35,414 nucleotides of DNA, from contig JAUSIH010000058.1 in assembly GCA_030648205.1 (NCBI GenBank), positions 1-35,414 on the forward strand, read 5' to 3'. Positions 1 to 8,856 of the stretch are shown one piece after another. This DNA comes from Dehalococcoidia bacterium (GTDB lineage: Bacteria > Chloroflexota > Dehalococcoidia > JAUSIH01). A program made the position numbers and the translations under genes. Position 1 is the first letter of the stretch, and the number at the start of each line of letters is the position of its first letter. Under the pieces are notes generated by a model. It was not told where the DNA came from. It saw only the letters and a list, made by a program, of their open reading frames with translations, and did no database searches.

Positions 1-120
1 GCGGCGGCTTTTGTACCTCCTACTCAGCCTCTAGCTGCTGTGTCCGCCCTACGCGACCATATATCCGTGGCTTTCATACAACACCGCACGGCTTGTTGCC
101 AGATATAATTGAAAACGGTG

Positions 121-651: not shown

Positions 652-683
652 GCGCCGGGGGTCATACCTCGACGCATTTGTTC

Positions 684-2003
684 ATGAACATCTTTCAGCC
701 TATTACGAAACGGACCAAGGGCATCTTTTTCGGCTGGTGGATCCTCACCAGCTTCAATGCCCTCAATTTCTATGCTAACGGCACCCTCTACTACGGGTTC
801 ACCGCTTTCTTCAGCCCCATCGCCAGCGAGATGGGATGGAGCCGCGCCGCAGTGGCCACCGGCGCCTCCCTGTTCCGCATGGAGTCCGGCGAAGCGTTCG
901 CGCCGCTCATAGGATACCTGTTCAACAAGGTGGGCGCACGGCGGCTCATGATGATCGGGGCCTCGGTGACGGGCCTCGGGTTCATTGCGCTGAGCCAGAT
1001 GCAGACGCTGTGGCACTACTACGCTGCGTTCACCCTACTGGCCCTCGGCTTCAGCTTCACCTTCAGCATCGTCATGGTCCCGGTGCTCGCCAATTGGTTC
1101 CACAAGAAACGCGGCCTAGCGTTCGGTCTCCTGGCGGGGGGCAACGCGACCGGCGGCCTGATGGTCCCGCTTCTTCCCCTCCTCATCAGCCAGTACGGCT
1201 GGCGGAGCACTCTTCTGGTTATCGGTCTCATGGCGTGGGTGTATTGCCTGCCACTGACGCTGGTTGTGCGGCAGCGGCCAGAAGACATGGGCCTGCGCCC
1301 GGACGGTGATGCGCAGGACACCGCCAAGCAGGCTGTCGCCAACGACAATACGCGGCCAGGGGGCCTGCGTGTCATCACGGAGCGGACGTCCACCGTCGCC
1401 CAAGCGGTGCGGCACCGGTCATTCTGGTTCATCGCCGCGGCCTTTACGATATGGGCCATGGTCATCAACTCCATCACCGTCCATGTGATCCCATTCTTCA
1501 CCGACCAGGGCTTTCCGCCCACGACCGCCGCTCTGGCCGTCACAGCTCTGACGCTGACCAGCATCCTGAGCCGCATTGGCTTCGGACGACTGGCGGACAC
1601 CTTCGATTCACGCTACCTGCTCATCGCCTGCAATCTGTCGGCGGCTGCGGGTCTGGCAGTGATGGCCTTTGTCCAAGGCCCGCTGCTCATCCCTCTCTTC
1701 GTGCTGAGCAGCTTCATCGCCTACGGAGGCGCCATCCCGTTGCGCCCGCAACTGCTCGCGGTCTATTACGGGCCCAAGGCGCTGCCGATGCTGCACGGAG
1801 TGCTCCTCATGGTGACGACCCTCGGGAGCACAATCGGTCCCGTCTACGCCGGCTGGGTGTATGACACGACGGGATCGTACACCATCGCATGGGTGACCAT
1901 GTCGCTCCTCAGCCTGTTCGGCATCCCGTTCATCCTGCTGGCGCGGCCTCCGCAGCAAGCGCCTCCCGCCCAGCCCAAGACGGGACTTGCGCCCGCCCCG
2001 TAA
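684..2003 (+). CDS. MFS transporter, oxalate/formate or monocarboxylate type
   Basis: This is a 12-helix major facilitator permease of the plasma membrane, 439 residues from the ATG at 684. A TTG two codons earlier (678) would also open the frame. Neither has a clear Shine-Dalgarno sequence. The segment 'YYGFTAFFSPIASEMGWSRA' near the N-terminus is typical of the OFA / monocarboxylate branch, which moves small organic acid anions. A charged, low-hydrophobic loop around residues 205-240 separates two six-helix halves. The next gene starts 59 bases downstream with a strong ribosome site, so this permease is probably co-transcribed with the selenoprotein and its partner. The transported compound may be their substrate; that link is inferred from position only. 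Confidence 0.85.
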   Translation: MNIFQPITKRTKGIFFGWWILTSFNALNFYANGTLYYGFTAFFSPIASEMGWSRAAVATGASLFRMESGEAFAPLIGYLFNKVGARRLMMIGASVTGLGFIALSQMQTLWHYYAAFTLLALGFSFTFSIVMVPVLANWFHKKRGLAFGLLAGGNATGGLMVPLLPLLISQYGWRSTLLVIGLMAWVYCLPLTLVVRQRPEDMGLRPDGDAQDTAKQAVANDNTRPGGLRVITERTSTVAQAVRHRSFWFIAAAFTIWAMVINSITVHVIPFFTDQGFPPTTAALAVTALTLTSILSRIGFGRLADTFDSRYLLIACNLSAAAGLAVMAFVQGPLLIPLFVLSSFIAYGGAIPLRPQLLAVYYGPKALPMLHGVLLMVTTLGSTIGPVYAGWVYDTTGSYTIAWVTMSLLSLFGIPFILLARPPQQAPPAQPKTGLAPAP

Positions 2004-2050: not shown

Positions 2051-2058
2051 AAGGAGGA
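2051..2058 (+). promoter_or_regulatory. Ribosome binding site of the selenoprotein gene
   Basis: AAGGAGGA is a full-strength Shine-Dalgarno sequence four bases before the ATG at 2063. It fixes the start of the UGA-containing frame. Confidence 0.8.
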
Positions 2059-2062
2059 AAAC

Positions 2063-2635
2063 ATGCCTGAACAGCGGACCTGGAAAATCCTGGACCCCAC
2101 GGCGCCGATCGAGTCAGATACGCTGAAGCGGGAGATCCCCATTGCCCCTCGGCTGCGCGAAGTGGACGGAAAGACCGTGGGCTTCCTCAGCAACATGTGG
2201 CCCAGCGTACGTCCCACCTTTCAGCGTTTCATTGAGGTGGCCAAGGAGCGCCACCACGTAGCTCACTCCGTGTTCAAGGAACACCCCAACGCCTCCAGCG
2301 CGGCTCCCCAAAGCCAGCTACAAGAGCTGGCTACCCAGGCGGATGCGGTGGTGGTGGGCCTGGCGAACTGAGGGGCATGCACCACCTGGACGGTGCGTGA
2401 CGCTATCGAGCTTGAGAAAAAGGGCATCCCCACGGTGGCTATGGTCACCGAGCGGTTCGTCAACCTGGCGCAACACGTCGCCAAGGGGCAGGGCATGCCA
2501 TCGCTGCCCATGGTCGTGCTGCCGGCTAACGTGGACTTTCTTTCGCCGGAGGAGCTGCGCGTTGTGGCCGACAAGGCATTCAGCGAGGTGGCGGGCAAGC
2601 TCGCCTCTGCTCGCCAACGCAAGCCAGCGGTGTAA
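2063..2635 (+). CDS. UGSC-family selenoprotein (in-frame UGA = selenocysteine)
   Basis: The frame opened at 2063 meets TGA at 2369-2371 and continues in the same frame to TAA at 2635, giving 190 residues if UGA is read as Sec103. Both halves fit one protein: before the UGA comes 'ADAVVVGLAN' and after it 'GACTTWTVRDAIELEKKGIP'. This matches the UGSC family, named for its Sec/Cys-Gly-Ser-Cys motif; here it reads Sec103-Gly-Ala-Cys106. A CxxC-like Sec/Cys pair suggests redox or thiol chemistry, but the reaction is unknown to me. A hairpin fit to be a bacterial SECIS follows the UGA. There is no restart site with a good ribosome signal after the TGA. The next gene begins 42 bases later. The Sec machinery (SelA, SelB, SelD, tRNA-Sec) is not in this window. 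Automatic callers would split this into two false genes. A true nonsense mutation is the alternative, but the fit to the family motif argues strongly against it. Confidence 0.87.
2369..2403 (+). promoter_or_regulatory. Candidate bacterial SECIS element
   Basis: Directly after the UGA (2369-2371), ATGCACC (2377-2383) pairs with GGTGCGT (2392-2398), with one G-U pair, closing an eight-base loop ACCTGGAC. One more C-G pair extends the base. The loop's GG lies about 17 bases from the UGA, in the range expected for SelB-binding hairpins inside bacterial reading frames. Structure and distance are seen in the sequence; SelB binding is inferred. Confidence 0.65.
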
Positions 2636-2677: not shown

Positions 2678-3736
2678 GTGAGTCCTGCCGCGCGCTTCAG
2701 TTCCCGCACCGTTGACGTAGAGCCCACGCCCGACGGCGCTTTTGCCGAGGCTTACCGTCTGGGCTGGACCGACGGTCTGCCCATTATCCCCCCCACAGAG
2801 GACAGGGTGGCGGCCATGGTGGACGCCAGTGGTTTGCCCGCGGACAAGCTGATGGGCAAGGTGCCGCCAGCCTACGGCGCGGCCACTATCGAGAAGATCG
2901 CCGTCAACGCTGTCATGGCGGGCTGCCTGGCGGAGTACATGCCGGTCGTCGTCGCCGCCACGGAGGCGATGTGCGAGAAGCAGTTCAACCTGGACGGCAT
3001 CCAGTCCACCACCAACCCGGTGGGCGTGGCGCTTATTATCAACGGCCCCATCCGCAAGCAGCTTGATGTCAACTGCGAGCGCAACTGTCTGGGGCCAGGC
3101 TGGCGGGCGAACGCCACCATTGGCCGGGCTGCCCGGCTGGTCATGCTGAACATTGGCGGGGGCACGCCAGGCACCGGGGACAAGGCCATCCATGGGTTTC
3201 CCGGCAAATACAGCTTCTGCTTTGGCGAACTGGAGGAGTCCAACCCCTGGGAGCCGTTGCACGTCGAGCGCGGCTTCAAGCGTGAGGACAGCACTGTGAC
3301 CGTGGTGGGCGCGCAGGGGACGTCCAACAACAACCTGGCCAACGAGTTCACTATTGAGGCCATGCTGGACGTGGTCGCCAACTCCATGAGCTATTTAGGC
3401 AGCAACAACGTCATGATAGGCGAGGGCGAGCCTCTGATTATTTTGACCGCCGCCCATGGCGAGCTGGCGAAAAAGGCGGGCATGTCCAAGATGGACGTGA
3501 AGAGGTACCTTTGGGAGAAGTCCGGGACGCCTCTCAGCGCCGTTCCCAAGAAGGGCACCGCCGACCGCCTCTGGCCGCGGCTGATCGTGGTGGACGGCAT
3601 CGTGAAGCCCTGCAAGCGTCCGGAGGATGTCATGCTGGTCATCGCGGGGGGGCCGGAGATGTACCATGCCGTCTTCGTAGCCACATTCGGAGACACGCAC
3701 GCGGTGACCAAACTCGTCCAGGCCCCGAAGAAATAG
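2678..3736 (+). CDS. Conserved partner protein of the UGSC selenoprotein, function unknown
   Basis: The protein has 352 residues from a GTG at 2678, with GAAGGAGA seven bases upstream. It is soluble, with no signal peptide or membrane span. Recognisable stretches are an N-terminal 'YRLGWTDGLPIIPPTEDRV', a block with two cysteines 'NCERNCLGPGWRANATIGRA' and a glycine-rich 'LNIGGGTPGTGDKAIHG'. This type of sequence is found beside or fused to UGSC-type proteins as far as I recall, so the two probably form one enzyme or complex. Which bond they act on I cannot tell. The paired cysteines would suit redox partnership with Sec103 of the upstream protein; that is inference. The gene ends with TAG, and a family A MITE-like element starts 11 bases later. 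Confidence 0.75.
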   Translation: MSPAARFSSRTVDVEPTPDGAFAEAYRLGWTDGLPIIPPTEDRVAAMVDASGLPADKLMGKVPPAYGAATIEKIAVNAVMAGCLAEYMPVVVAATEAMCEKQFNLDGIQSTTNPVGVALIINGPIRKQLDVNCERNCLGPGWRANATIGRAARLVMLNIGGGTPGTGDKAIHGFPGKYSFCFGELEESNPWEPLHVERGFKREDSTVTVVGAQGTSNNNLANEFTIEAMLDVVANSMSYLGSNNVMIGEGEPLIILTAAHGELAKKAGMSKMDVKRYLWEKSGTPLSAVPKKGTADRLWPRLIVVDGIVKPCKRPEDVMLVIAGGPEMYHAVFVATFGDTHAVTKLVQAPKK

Positions 3737-4215: not shown

Positions 4216-5427
4216 ATGAAGCTGAAAACAAAAGGTATGCGGGTGGACCTCTTCGAGAAGTGCCGCCAGTTCATGCCCATAGTCCTCGAGCATCAGGCAA
4301 AGGGTGTTTATCCATACTTCATCCCGCTCGAGTCGGAGTCTGGCCCCGAGGTTGTCATTGGCGGGCGGCGCGTCCTCATGCTGGGGTCCAACAACTACCT
4401 GGGCCTCACGCAGCACCCGGCGGTCAAAGCGGCGGCCAAAGCCGCCATTGACCGCTACGGCAGCGGCTGCACGGGCTCTCGTCTGCTGAACGGCACGCTG
4501 GAGCTGCACGAGGAGCTGGAGCGTCGGCTTGCCGCGTTCATGCACAAGGAAGCGGCCCTGGTCTTCACCACGGGCTTCCAGGCCAACCTGGGCGCTATTT
4601 CAGCCCTGGCGGACCGCCATGACACCATTGTCATTGACAGGAGCGATCACGCCAGCATCATTGATGGCTGTCGCCTCTCCACGGCCCATGTGGTCAAGTA
4701 CCGGCATAACGACATGGAGCACCTGGAGAGCGTCCTCAAGTCCCTGGACGGCAAGGGCGGCGTGTTCATTGTGGCGGATGGCGTCTTCAGCATGGACGGC
4801 GATTTGGCGAACATCCCCGCGATGGTCCGCCTCAAGAAGCGCTATGGCGCTCGCCTCCTCATTGACGACGCCCACGGCATTGGCGCTCTTGGCAAGTGCG
4901 GCCGCGGCACGCTCGAAGTGTTCGGGATGGAAGAGGGCGTTGATGTCGTCGTCGGCACGTTCAGCAAGTCGCTGGCGTCCATTGGGGGCTTCGTCGTCGG
5001 AGACAAGGATCCCATCGAGTACATCAAGCACAACGCGCGCAGCATGCTGTTCAGCGCCAGCCTGCCTCCCGCCAGCGTGGCCGCGGCCATGGCGGCGCTG
5101 GAGATTGTAGTGAAAGAGCCGGAGCGGCGCGTCCGCCTGTGGCAGAACGTCAAAATGATGCGCGAAGGTCTGGAGTCGCTGGGCTTTGATATAGGGAATA
5201 GCCAGAGCCCTGTCATTCCCGTCATCATCGGCGACAACTCCCAGGTCACGGTGTTCTGGCGGGCGCTCTTTGACGCGGGTCTCTACACCAACTGCATCCT
5301 CTCCCCGGGGGTCCCGCCGGGTCACGAACTCATCCGCACCAGCTACATGGCCACGCACACCAAGGAGCACCTGCAGCAGGCGCTGGACATCTTTGAGACC
5401 GTAGGGAAGCGGATTGGCATTATTTAG
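4216..5427 (+). CDS. spt: Serine palmitoyltransferase-like PLP enzyme (alpha-oxoamine synthase)
   Basis: The 403-residue protein is a fold-type I PLP enzyme that condenses an amino acid with an acyl thioester and releases CO2. The PLP lysine is K251 in 'GTFSKSLASIGG', a form typical of serine palmitoyltransferase rather than of 8-amino-7-oxononanoate synthase or 2-amino-3-ketobutyrate ligase. H145 in 'DHASIIDG' would stack on PLP, and D217 and H220 in 'DDAHGIGALG' contact the cofactor. 'YGSGCTGSRLLNGTLELHEE' (about residues 77-96) also fits this family. Serine plus acyl-CoA or acyl-ACP giving 3-ketosphinganine is the likely reaction. The start is uncertain: ATG at 4216 lacks a clear ribosome site, and ATG at 4237 is an alternative. 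Downstream come an acyltransferase, a glycosyltransferase and a reductase, which support a sphingolipid role over biotin. No bio gene or dedicated acyl carrier protein is seen here. Confidence 0.8.
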   Translation: MKLKTKGMRVDLFEKCRQFMPIVLEHQAKGVYPYFIPLESESGPEVVIGGRRVLMLGSNNYLGLTQHPAVKAAAKAAIDRYGSGCTGSRLLNGTLELHEELERRLAAFMHKEAALVFTTGFQANLGAISALADRHDTIVIDRSDHASIIDGCRLSTAHVVKYRHNDMEHLESVLKSLDGKGGVFIVADGVFSMDGDLANIPAMVRLKKRYGARLLIDDAHGIGALGKCGRGTLEVFGMEEGVDVVVGTFSKSLASIGGFVVGDKDPIEYIKHNARSMLFSASLPPASVAAAMAALEIVVKEPERRVRLWQNVKMMREGLESLGFDIGNSQSPVIPVIIGDNSQVTVFWRALFDAGLYTNCILSPGVPPGHELIRTSYMATHTKEHLQQALDIFETVGKRIGII

Positions 5428-5475
5428 TTTGTTGGAGTCTTACCGGTCTGGTTACGGCTACGGGCGTCTTTTACA

Positions 5476-6630
5476 TTGACGACAGCACAAAGCATCCAGA
5501 CGCCTGGAACGAAGGCGGTGCAGGTCAGTCCAGTCCGCTCATCGCGCGACCTGGACGACTTCATACGTCTGCCGTGGCGTATCTACCGTGGCGACCGCTG
5601 CTGGGTGCCCCCGCTCATCCCCCGGCAAAAAGAGCTCCTGGACCGCTCCCGCCACCCGTTTCATCGCCACGCCGAGGTGGAATACTTTTTGGCCAGCCAG
5701 GACGGTCAGGTGGTCGGTCGGGTCGCCGCCATTCTGAACCACCGCCACAACGAATTTCACCACGAAAATGTAGGCTTCTTCGGCTTCTTCGAGTGCGTCG
5801 AGTCCGAGCAGGTCGCCGTGGCGCTCCTCCAGGCGGCCGGCGCCTGGCTCAGGGAGCGCGGGGCAGTCGCCATGAGGGGACCCGCCAGCTTCTCCAGCAA
5901 CGAGGAGTGGGGCCTGCTCATCGAGGGCTTCGAGCGTCCGCCCACCATCATGATGTCCTATAATCCGCGCTACTATGCGAGCCTTCTGGAAGGGGCCGGC
6001 CTTGCCAAGATAAAGGACCTGGTGGCGTGGCACTCCAATCTGGAAACGGCCAACAAGACGCAGCTCCGGAGGCTGACCGACAGACTGGCCCGGAGCGGGG
6101 ACATCACCGTCCGGCCCATCAACATGAAGCGGTTCAACGAGGAGGTGAAGCTCCTCCACGGGCTGTACAACAAGGCGTGGAGTCTGAACTGGGGCTTTGT
6201 GCCCATGACGGAGGAAGAGTTCTTCCACATGGCGCGCCAGCTCAAGGACCTGGTCATGCCTGACATTATTCTTGTGGGCTATGTCAAAGGCGAGCCGGCG
6301 GGCTTCAGCCTGTCCCTGCTGGACTACAATCAGGCCTTTATCCACATGAATGGCCGCATGGGGCTATTGGAGATCATCAAGTTCCTGTGGCACTCCAGGA
6401 AGATACGGTTCACGCGGGCCGTCGCCCTGGGCGTGGCGCCAGCATACCAGCGCAAGGGCCTAGATGCGCTGCTGATGCTTGACAGCTTCAACCGCGCGAT
6501 GCGCAAAGGCATTACGGAGGGGGAGATATCCTGGGTCCTGGAGGACAACATGCGCATGAACAACACCTGTGTGAGCTTTGGATTGAAGGTCTACAAGCGC
6601 TATCGCGTATACGAAAGGGCGCTGTCATGA
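5476..6630 (+). CDS. GNAT-fold acyltransferase, candidate bacterial ceramide synthase
   Basis: The protein has 384 residues from a TTG at 5476; no strong ribosome site is seen and a GTG at 5518 is an alternative. The N-terminal part has 'FIRLPWRIYRGDRCWVPPL', followed by 'VVGRVAAILNHRHNEFH', a GNAT-like beta strand. The C-terminal half contains 'RFTRAVALGVAPAYQRKG', the acyl-CoA loop region of GNAT proteins (V/A-x-x-x-x-Q-R-x-G), near residues 310-330. This architecture is that of the large family which includes the Caulobacter ceramide synthase bCerS. As far as I recall, that enzyme N-acylates the long-chain amine made by serine palmitoyltransferase. Position right after the Spt-like gene supports the same role here. 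A different N-acyltransfer is possible. The stop overlaps the next start (ATGA). Confidence 0.72.
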   Translation: MTTAQSIQTPGTKAVQVSPVRSSRDLDDFIRLPWRIYRGDRCWVPPLIPRQKELLDRSRHPFHRHAEVEYFLASQDGQVVGRVAAILNHRHNEFHHENVGFFGFFECVESEQVAVALLQAAGAWLRERGAVAMRGPASFSSNEEWGLLIEGFERPPTIMMSYNPRYYASLLEGAGLAKIKDLVAWHSNLETANKTQLRRLTDRLARSGDITVRPINMKRFNEEVKLLHGLYNKAWSLNWGFVPMTEEEFFHMARQLKDLVMPDIILVGYVKGEPAGFSLSLLDYNQAFIHMNGRMGLLEIIKFLWHSRKIRFTRAVALGVAPAYQRKGLDALLMLDSFNRAMRKGITEGEISWVLEDNMRMNNTCVSFGLKVYKRYRVYERALS

Positions 6631-7850
6631 AATCCAGCTATACGACAAGCCCGCACCCTGTCCATCGTCGCCCTGTCCGCATCCTCATCGTCATGTCGGA
6701 CACGGGAGGAGGGCACCGGAGCGCGGCGCAGGCGCTGAAGGGGGCGTTCCAGTCTCTGTATGGCTCCAGCGTGGAGATATACATTGTGGACTTCTTCGCT
6801 CTCCAGCGGCCTACCCCGGTGGACCGGCTGACCCGCCTCTATGGGCCGCTCATCCGTCACAGCCCCTGGCTGTGGGGGGCCCTCTACAAGGCCACCGACT
6901 CCCCCCAGGTCTATCGTGGCCTGGTCAGGACCCTTGAGCCGCTTCAGATACCCAAGGTGCGCCGCCTGCTGGATGCCCTGGCGCCTGACGCGGTGGTCTC
7001 CGTCCATCCGCTGTGCACCCGCGTGGTCGCGCACGCCATTCAGCGCCTCCGCCGTCCTATTCCGCTTATCGCTATGCCCACCGACCTGGTCAGCGTCCAT
7101 GCCAGCCACATTGACCCGGCGGTGGACCTGTTCATCGCGCCGACGCAAAGTTCGATGAAGAACCTGATCGCGCGGAACGTCCCCTCTGACAAGGTCATAA
7201 GCCTGGGCCTGCCCGTGGACGAGCGGTTCGGCCGCGTGGCGCGCAGCCCATCCGAGCTGCGCAACGAGCTGGGGCTGGACCCTCAGCGTTTCACCGCGCT
7301 GCTCATGGGTGGCGGCGAGGGAGCAGGGCCGCTCTCCCGCATCGTCCAGGCTGTGGATGAGGCCGGTCTGCCGATTCAGATGCTGGTGGTGTGTGGCCGC
7401 AACGCGGTGTGCCGCAGCAATCTGGAGAAGGCGCGCAGGACGATAGCCTGCCGCATCTTCGGCTTCGTCCATAACGTTCCGGACCTTATGGCCGCCAGCG
7501 ACGTCGTGATCACGAAGGCTGGCCCCCAGACCATCGCCGAGGCACTTGCCGCGGGCCGTCCGATCCTGCTGACGCACGCCCTGCCGGGGCAGGAGGAAGA
7601 CAACGTGCAGTATGTGGAGGCGGGAGGCGCGGGTTATTTCACGCCTACGCCTGAGGAGGTCGTGGCGCGCTTGAAAGATCTGGTTGAGCAGCCATCCAAG
7701 CTGGCGTGGCTCCAGGGGCAGGCGCGAGGCCTTGGCAGGCCACAGGCGGCACGGGAGGCGGCCCAGGCGGTCATGAGCATGGTGCCCGCCCCGGCTCCGC
7801 AACCCTCCATCAAACGGCCACGGCAGCGGTGGGAGTGGGATCCCGCCTAA
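6627..7850 (+). CDS. MGDG-synthase-like glycosyltransferase (GT28)
   Basis: The protein has 407 residues and starts in an ATGA overlap with the acyltransferase stop, so translation is probably coupled. The N-terminal domain has 'ILIVMSDTGGGHRSAAQAL' (residues about 15-33), the hallmark of monogalactosyldiacylglycerol synthase and processive diacylglycerol glucosyltransferases. The C-terminal GT28 domain has 'GFVHNVPDLMAASDVVITKAG', the 'TIAEALAAGRPILLT' sugar-nucleotide site and 'GQEEDN'. It would sit at the inner membrane face and move a sugar from a nucleotide donor to a lipid. Its place between ceramide-type genes makes ceramide or a long-chain base a likely acceptor; diacylglycerol is the conventional alternative. 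Confidence 0.85.
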   Translation: MKSSYTTSPHPVHRRPVRILIVMSDTGGGHRSAAQALKGAFQSLYGSSVEIYIVDFFALQRPTPVDRLTRLYGPLIRHSPWLWGALYKATDSPQVYRGLVRTLEPLQIPKVRRLLDALAPDAVVSVHPLCTRVVAHAIQRLRRPIPLIAMPTDLVSVHASHIDPAVDLFIAPTQSSMKNLIARNVPSDKVISLGLPVDERFGRVARSPSELRNELGLDPQRFTALLMGGGEGAGPLSRIVQAVDEAGLPIQMLVVCGRNAVCRSNLEKARRTIACRIFGFVHNVPDLMAASDVVITKAGPQTIAEALAAGRPILLTHALPGQEEDNVQYVEAGGAGYFTPTPEEVVARLKDLVEQPSKLAWLQGQARGLGRPQAAREAAQAVMSMVPAPAPQPSIKRPRQRWEWDPA

Positions 7851-7872
7851 CGGACTTGCTCACACTGCGCTG

Positions 7873-8856
7873 ATGGGCGTCACGTGCCTGGTGACAGGCG
7901 CCACCGGATTCGTCGGTAGCCATTTGGTGGACGCGCTCCTCGCCCGAGGAGACCAGGTCGTCTGCCTGACCCGCAAGACCAGCGACCTGCGCTGGCTTCA
8001 AAACAAGCCCGTCGCTTTCGCCTGGGGCGACGTGACCGCGCCCGAGAGTCTCCCTTCGGCGGTGCGCGACGTCGATTACGTTTTCCATGCGGCCGGACTG
8101 ACCCGCGCCCGCGACCCCGAGGACTTCGTCAGAGTCAACCACCAAGGCACTGTCAGCCTCTTGCAGGCGTGCAGCGCCTCCGCCCGCCGTCTGCGCCGCT
8201 TCGTCCTGGTGAGCAGCCTGGCCGCTGCCGGTCCCGCCCACACTGAGCGTCCCGTGACGGAAGGCGACCCGTGCCGTCCGGTCAGCCTGTACGGGCAGAG
8301 CAAGCAGGACGCGGAGGTCGCCGCGGAGGGCTACCGCAAGGAGTTGCCTGTCACCATCGTGCGCCCGCCCGCCGTGTACGGCCCACGCGACGCGGCCACC
8401 CTTCCCCTCTTCCGCATCGTGACTCGCCATATCCTGCCGATGCCCACCCGTCCTCGCCGCGTCAGCATCATCTCCTCGCACGACCTGACGGCAGGCATCC
8501 TGCTGGCCGCGGAACACCCCCGCGCCGTGGGACGCACCTACTTCATGGCCCATGATCTATCGGTCAGTATCGCCGACTTCGCACGCCTGGCGGCCCGCGC
8601 CCTGGGCGTCTGGACCTTGCCCGTGCCGGCGCCCGCCTGGGCCGTGCGCGCCTACATGATGGGGCTGCACATGTTTCTGCGGGCGTGGACGAAGGGGGAG
8701 GCGTTCGGCAAGGACAAAGGGCGCGAGCTCGGCGTTCGGTACTGGCTGTGCGACAGCTCGCGTGCGCAGCGGGAGTTGGGGTTCCGCGCGCCCACGCCGC
8801 ACGAGGAGGGCGTTCGCGCCACTGTCCTGTGGTACAGGCAGCAGGGCTGGCTTTAG
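7873..8856 (+). CDS. NAD-dependent epimerase/dehydratase family reductase (CerR-like candidate)
   Basis: The protein has 327 residues and is an extended short-chain dehydrogenase. The Rossmann motif is 'TGATGFVGSHL' (residues about 8-18), followed by 'LVSSLAAAG' with the catalytic serine near 115 and Y140-x3-K144 in 'LYGQSKQDAE'. A hydrophobic stretch near residues 245-275 may hold it to the membrane, as in 3-beta-hydroxysteroid dehydrogenase-like enzymes. In Caulobacter the ceramide reductase CerR belongs to this superfamily and is linked to spt. Here the gene follows the glycosyltransferase by 22 bases. Reduction of the 3-keto group of ceramide is thus the favoured role, but sugar epimerisation cannot be excluded. 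The gene ends in front of a palindromic element. Confidence 0.75.
   Translation: MGVTCLVTGATGFVGSHLVDALLARGDQVVCLTRKTSDLRWLQNKPVAFAWGDVTAPESLPSAVRDVDYVFHAAGLTRARDPEDFVRVNHQGTVSLLQACSASARRLRRFVLVSSLAAAGPAHTERPVTEGDPCRPVSLYGQSKQDAEVAAEGYRKELPVTIVRPPAVYGPRDAATLPLFRIVTRHILPMPTRPRRVSIISSHDLTAGILLAAEHPRAVGRTYFMAHDLSVSIADFARLAARALGVWTLPVPAPAWAVRAYMMGLHMFLRAWTKGEAFGKDKGRELGVRYWLCDSSRAQRELGFRAPTPHEEGVRATVLWYRQQGWL

Follow-up and report, generated by a model that had tools for sequence, protein, structure and literature searches.

The gene at positions 2063 to 2635 of the window (the whole stretch of DNA analysed, 35,414 nucleotides) is almost certainly a genuine selenoprotein gene, as predicted from an in-frame UGA that recurs at the same codon in nearly all of the paralogues read. 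It belongs to the UGSC family, and together with the adjoining gene of a second family (PART, here called the partner) it very probably forms a functional unit that recurs throughout this Dehalococcoidia genome. Taken as a whole, the evidence is best explained by a two-part selenol enzyme that has diversified over many imported organic substrates, an interpretation that we regard as likely. The partner gene, the roughly 46-fold expansion and the kinship with the selenoproteins GrdB and PrdB had all been overlooked in an initial annotation of this DNA.

Results

The features of the locus are given in Table 1. The window lies in contig 58 of a 2.69-Mb genome that is 95% complete and 1% contaminated.

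Table 1. Predicted features at and around the UGSC locus of the window.
Feature	Position	Strand	Basis
MFS transporter, oxalate/formate-antiporter or lactate type, directly upstream of the UGSC gene	678..2003	+	PF07690, 133 bits
Ribosome-binding site AAGGAGG	2051..2057	+	Sequence, 6 bases 5' of ATG 2063
UGSC-family selenoprotein gene (predicted), 190 aa, Sec = residue 103	2063..2635	+	Read-through translation; PF24696; NF041046 (below cut-off)
In-frame UGA, predicted to be read as Sec, motif U-G-A-C	2369..2371	+	TGA at same codon in paralogues
SECIS-like hairpin (putative)	2376..2399	+	MFE fold; variant of family SECIS
Partner gene (PART family), 352 aa, GTG start	2678..3736	+	Adjoins UGSC gene; AlphaFold2 model

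The initial annotation had joined two same-phase frames, split by the TGA at 2369, into one protein. We found a single frame of 190 codons from ATG 2063 to TAA 2633-2635, in which the sole in-frame TGA is codon 103 and is followed by 87 codons before the TAA. The read-through product (...VVVGLAN-U-GACTTWTVRDAIELEKKGIP...) matches the Pfam family PF24696 with 158.1 bits (cut-off 25) over positions 2-170 of the 172 in the profile, and the match spans residues 9-180 of the protein, on both sides of the TGA. Against the NCBI equivalog NF041046 it scores 106.4 bits, below the cut-off of 125, and the gene is therefore filed under the Pfam family only. The Sec/Cys-Gly-any-Cys motif of the family is present as U103-G-A-C; the departure from UGSC that had been remarked upon is an ordinary variant, as 5 of the 41 Sec genes read in this genome have UGAC. 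The strong ribosome site described ahead of the first half lies at 2051-2057, and by eye none was seen in the sequence 5' of GTG 2393, which agrees with the description of the second half as lacking one.

The genome encodes a complete set of Sec genes, including a tRNA-Sec of 94 bases (69 bits, anticodon TCA; ARAGORN) and, by profile search, SelA (564 bits), SelB (351 bits) and SelD (366 bits), the last with its own in-frame UGA at the usual place (CAGUAAK). Absence of all Sec genes from a near-complete genome had been named as grounds against a selenoprotein; selA, selB, selC and selD are all found in this one and, with the Pfam score, they uphold the assignment to the UGSC family in its Sec form. 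One UGSC gene (L050) directly adjoins selA, and another (L062, 3041-3553), the sole UGSC gene read here that has no partner, is found about 1.5 kb away from the gene for tRNA-Sec.

The UGSC profile has 46 matches in this genome, nearly all with one in-frame TGA. We read 42 of these genes base by base: 41 contain a single TGA, which always falls at U-G-[SGAV]-C (UGSC in 27, UGGC in 8, UGAC in 5 and UGVC in 1), and one lacks the Sec motif. The copies are not assembly duplicates, since their pairwise identity has a median of 30% and a maximum of 62%. Strain mixture in the MAG was likewise rejected as their origin, as no UGSC pair exceeds 62% identity here or 79% in the sampled relative described below. 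At L065 (1134-1637, minus strand) a UGSC-partner fusion has kept its frame and lost the Sec motif (AENRPGGA for UGxCT).

These paralogues bear directly on how the TGA is to be read. It might be a normal stop between two small frames, or else arise from an assembly error or a lesion in a pseudogene; TGA does serve as a stop elsewhere in this genome, in 22-23% of long ORFs. However, the codon at this position is TGA in 41 of 42 paralogues of this genome and in 63 of 63 of the relative (104 of 105 over the two genomes), a covarying hairpin lies behind the TGA, and the genome has the full Sec machinery, so that we give this reading a negligible probability. The paralogue counts exclude chance, pseudogene formation and also sequencing error, which the initial annotation had allowed for, as the source of the TGA. 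Equally remote is a genome-wide reassignment of UGA, for instance to Trp or Gly, in place of recoding at chosen sites: TGA is indeed under-used as a stop in this genome, but none of 42 partner domains contains an in-frame TGA, four partner genes and six UGSC genes end in TGA, and selC, selA, selB and selD are all present. A reassigned code was rejected on these paralogue counts and stop-codon checks. The status of the window gene as a predicted selenoprotein gene is as firm as sequence permits.

The main stop codon is TAG both in this genome (56%) and in the relative (50%), with TGA at 22% and 34%, respectively. TGA accounts for 56-62% of stops in three genomes of the same class with a GC content of 0.65-0.69 and zero to three UGSC genes. 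The idea that TGA avoidance is an adaptation to heavy Sec use is suggestive only, because a genome with just two UGSC genes (G189, GC 0.52) has the same TAG bias.

A SECIS-like stem behind the UGA had also been proposed. The stem itself is real, with 2376-2383 pairing with 2392-2399 (8 pairs including one G-U, -16.0 kcal/mol; z = -2.0 against dinucleotide shuffles, 7 of 200 of which were equally good), but its register is a variant of the family SECIS. Across 66 genes, the latter pairs UGA+14..20 with UGA+26..32 around a loop of five bases, usually AGUxU or UGUxU, that begins 18 bases past the UGA. In this register 83.8% of cells are paired, compensatory changes occur in 24 cells (shuffle mean 6.9), and the covariation of 0.209 compares with 0.100 in shuffles, none of 500 reaching the observed value, and with at most 0.087 in slid registers. 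More pairs are kept than synonymous codon choice would predict, both in the window's genome (5.22 against 4.09 +/- 0.17) and in the other genomes (6.33 against 4.54 +/- 0.15). Codon choice in the loop follows the same pattern: Ser is AGT in 62 of 62 genes of other genomes and in 11 of 12 in the window's genome, and Cys is TGT in all 17 genes of the window's genome, although both codons are rarer gene-wide; in the window's genome, TGC is three times commoner than TGT across genes.

The family consensus, with its loop 18 nt after the UGA, conforms to the bacterial SECIS model, in which the apical loop lies 16-37 nt past the UGA and G occupies one of the first two loop positions (PMC13188914). 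The minimum free energy hairpin of the window gene has its loop 12 nt after the UGA. The window gene and its nearest paralogue, L065, have CACCACCUGGACGGUG in common, a segment whose fold is shifted relative to the family register; an alternative, shorter stem (2383-2386 with 2392-2395) with the five-base loop UGGAC, 15 nt from the UGA and with G second, can be formed and would be closer to the bacterial consensus.

The UGSC expansion is larger still in a relative of the same class (JACPQD01; groundwater MAG NC_groundwater_644; hereafter G027). Of 393 genomes of the class that were surveyed, with at most eight candidates scored per genome, 132 had UGSC matches, usually just one or a few. G027 gave more than 200 first-look candidates, and all 63 UGSC genes read in a sample of 800 kb (16% of the genome) carry one TGA; the sample was drawn from match-rich contigs, two of which alone hold 21 and 25 UGSC genes, so that scaling the count by length is invalid. 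The strict pattern U-G-x-C-[T/S]-x-W was found 25 times in the window's genome and 74 times in G027, compared with 0 and 1 times for a reversed-pattern control. As only about 43-60% of verified UGSC genes match this pattern, we estimate that G027 probably has 130-170 in total. SelB is present in G027; tRNA-Sec was not found in this MAG, which has a listed contamination of 7%. The largest bacterial selenoproteome reported is 63 (a Methylomirabilota MAG), following a previous 57, according to a 2026 review (PMC13188914). Our counts cover UGSC genes and SelD, a part of the whole selenoproteome, and on these counts the window's genome and G027 would surpass all reported users of selenoproteins, chiefly owing to a single uncharacterised enzyme family.

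UGSC genes were found next to, or fused with, a partner of about 340 amino acids at 41 of 42 loci in the window's genome and 62 of 63 in G027. In the former the partner is on the same strand and within 400 bp of the UGSC gene, downstream in 31 cases and upstream in 10. Natural UGSC-partner fusions number at least 20. When 80 loci were collected from GTDB genomes through the partner alone (Chloroflexota, Betaproteobacteria, Methylomirabilota, Nitrospinota and others), about 70 had UGSC nearby. Cys forms occur at such loci in Natrialba asiatica, a Sphingomonas MAG and one archaeal MAG, and the pairing is therefore independent of Sec. In the UGSC genes L141, L142 and L153 the motif is U-G-S-S, with Sec kept and the resolving Cys changed to Ser. 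From this genomic association, the UGSC protein and the adjoining partner very probably work together, and pairing and fusion lead us to infer that they form one enzyme complex. When 184 partners were placed in a tree, sequences from the two rich genomes and from the others were interleaved, with about 20 label changes each as against 38-60 for shuffled labels; the diversity is therefore for the most part older than these genomes or was passed between them, and some of the growth is lineage-specific.

The partner sequence had no match in Pfam, NCBIfam or PDB sequence entries. It has a single near-invariant Cys (C83), and its AlphaFold2 model is of high confidence (pLDDT 94.8, pTM 0.92); that of one natural fusion has a pLDDT of 89.4 and a pTM of 0.91. 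Foldseek returned no strong match for the partner model or for the UGSC part of the fusion. For the partner, the sole match under 1e-3 was a subunit of the two-subunit fumarate hydratase of Methanocaldococcus (E 2.4e-4), which overlaps it only partially (TM-score 0.28-0.33, rmsd 15). The UGSC part was nearest to lumazine synthase and other alpha/beta proteins (best E 3.5e-3), with no thioredoxin among the best 50 matches; as modelled, the fold is not clearly that of thioredoxin.

By profile comparison, the UGSC domain is a predicted distant relative of the Sec domain of GrdB/PrdB. An hhalign comparison of 145 UGSC sequences with GrdB/PrdB-type proteins of relatives gave a probability of 96.1 (E 2.9e-9) over 95 columns, with Sec column aligned on Sec, whereas controls ranged from 0.1 to 3.7 (partner against GrdB 0.3, GrdE against UGSC 3.7, partner against GrdE 0.1). 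The window protein also has weak, sub-cut-off matches around Sec to four NCBIfam models of the selenoprotein B of glycine/betaine/sarcosine reductase. GrdB and PrdB (glycine, betaine, sarcosine and D-proline reductase; PF07355, TIGR01917) share with UGSC a UGTC-type motif, the helix that follows it and an HPxG stretch; UGSC differs from them in being shorter and in having a different partner protein, with no GrdE/PrdA alongside. Searches of the window's genome found neither the pyruvoyl subunit GrdE/PrdA (PF09338) nor, at E 0.1, a match to PF07355, and we accordingly rejected UGSC as a member of glycine reductase; the control value of 0.1 likewise rejects the partner as GrdE. With no GrdE in the genome, and a partner that profile comparison places apart from it, the chemistry of GrdB may not apply here. 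Short stand-alone PrdB-like selenoproteins with U-P-V/L-C, apparently distinct from true proline reductase, were seen in Chloroflexota (L180, L184, L189 and L191).

The transporter directly upstream of the window gene scores best in NCBIfam against the L-lactate MFS model NF049980 (161 bits), followed by TIGR00890 (116 bits), both below cut-off, and is a possible substrate supplier for the UGSC pair. Among 84 ORFs neighbouring UGSC genes in the window's genome were 8 SBP_bac_5 receptors, 7 BPD_transp permeases, 5 MFS and 5 CoA-transferase III proteins. TctC receptors dominate among the neighbours in other genomes (31 of 117), and a TctC-like cluster accounts for 37 of 190 ORFs near the pair compared with 10 of 131 far from it. 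TctC receptors are common in Burkholderiales, and the TctC-UGSC link is for this reason moderate.

Discussion

The UGSC family (PF24696, NF041046) is known from marine and symbiont metagenomes, and its fusion to a domain termed 'Unknown_1' was noted in 2008, when a thioredoxin fold was suggested for UGSC (PMC2398784). UGSC itself and a UGSC fusion are thus already known; the literature searched did not mention a universal partner, an expansion on this scale or a kinship with GrdB. We presume that the 'Unknown_1' domain is probably the partner family described here. The window gene has the same domain and the same U-G-x-C motif in its Sec form as the known family, and differs in its UGAC, in belonging to a set of about 46 copies in one genome and in having its partner as a separate, adjacent gene. 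Heavy Sec use comparable to that seen here has been described in the Olavius algarvensis Delta1 symbiont (57) and the Methylomirabilota MAG (63) (PMC13188914), but here one family alone contributes 46, and at least 63 in the sample of the relative. The SAO and Tso multi-selenoprotein operons are likewise clustered Sec genes in specialised lineages (PMC13188914); in our case, by contrast, a two-gene module is repeated genome-wide, and not one operon of several selenoproteins.

We propose that SelB and tRNA-Sec would decode the UGA at 2369 as Sec, aided by the hairpin just 3' of it. The product would be a compact alpha/beta domain whose Sec-Gly-x-Cys could be the counterpart of the GrdB/PrdB Sec motif, and which would form one enzyme with the 340-aa partner, as two chains in the window and as one fused chain elsewhere. 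Dozens of copies of this pair have arisen and diverged, each of them probably with its own small organic substrate, which a neighbouring transporter would import. Such diversification over substrates is probable in view of the copy number, the divergence of the copies and the transporters. As to chemistry, we tentatively favour a GrdB-like reductive cleavage: the selenolate would attack the alpha-carbon of a carboxylate-type substrate, a C-N, C-S, C-O or C-halogen bond would be cleaved reductively, and the resolving Cys of U-G-x-C would form a selenenylsulfide that is then reduced again.

The main rival to reductive cleavage is a reaction of the lyase, isomerase or hydratase type, with Sec as the nucleophile or base and no net reduction; the partner would then provide a substrate pocket resembling that of class I fumarase or serine dehydratase. 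The fumarate hydratase subunit as the partner's only Foldseek match under 1e-3 speaks for it, as do serine dehydratase and cysteine desulfidase lower among the matches. Three Cys are usually needed for a 4Fe-4S cluster. The partner has one near-invariant Cys and not three, however, and the structural overlap is partial, which leaves this rival rather unlikely. We consider it more doubtful still that the two proteins serve as a thiol-disulfide or peroxide-reducing redox system of thioredoxin-like fold, as surmised in 2008, with paralogues that differ in their protein partners and not in small-molecule substrates. The UxxC motif would suit such a role, but the fused UGSC model lies nearest to lumazine synthase and other alpha/beta proteins, the profile kinship is to GrdB/PrdB, and dozens of copies beside solute transporters fit distinct substrates better than a general redox function. 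Reductive cleavage by a two-part selenol enzyme remains the mechanism that we tentatively prefer. There is perhaps an even chance that UGSC and its partner constitute a new two-component selenoenzyme class, a substrate-diversified relative of glycine reductase without the pyruvoyl subunit, of which some Chloroflexota would have 50-170 copies. If this is true, selenocysteine would underlie whole catabolic repertoires, and the selenoproteomes concerned would be the largest of any organism.

Selenocysteine is normally rare. About 46 divergent copies of a single Sec enzyme in 2.7 Mb, and at least 63 in a sixth of the relative's genome, suggest that an entire metabolic strategy can rely on it as the standard catalyst. 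Because conventional annotation splits such genes at the UGA, this strategy mostly escapes notice. The constant partner, the transporters nearby and the relationship to GrdB provide a concrete handle on the function of UGSC.

Elsewhere in the window (4216-8856), a serine-palmitoyltransferase-like gene (NF047600, 517 bits, below the cut-off of 640) is followed consecutively by genes for a GNAT acyltransferase, an MGDG-synthase-like glycosyltransferase and an NAD-dependent epimerase. Judged by these family matches, the region resembles a bacterial gene cluster for sphingolipids or ceramide glycolipids.
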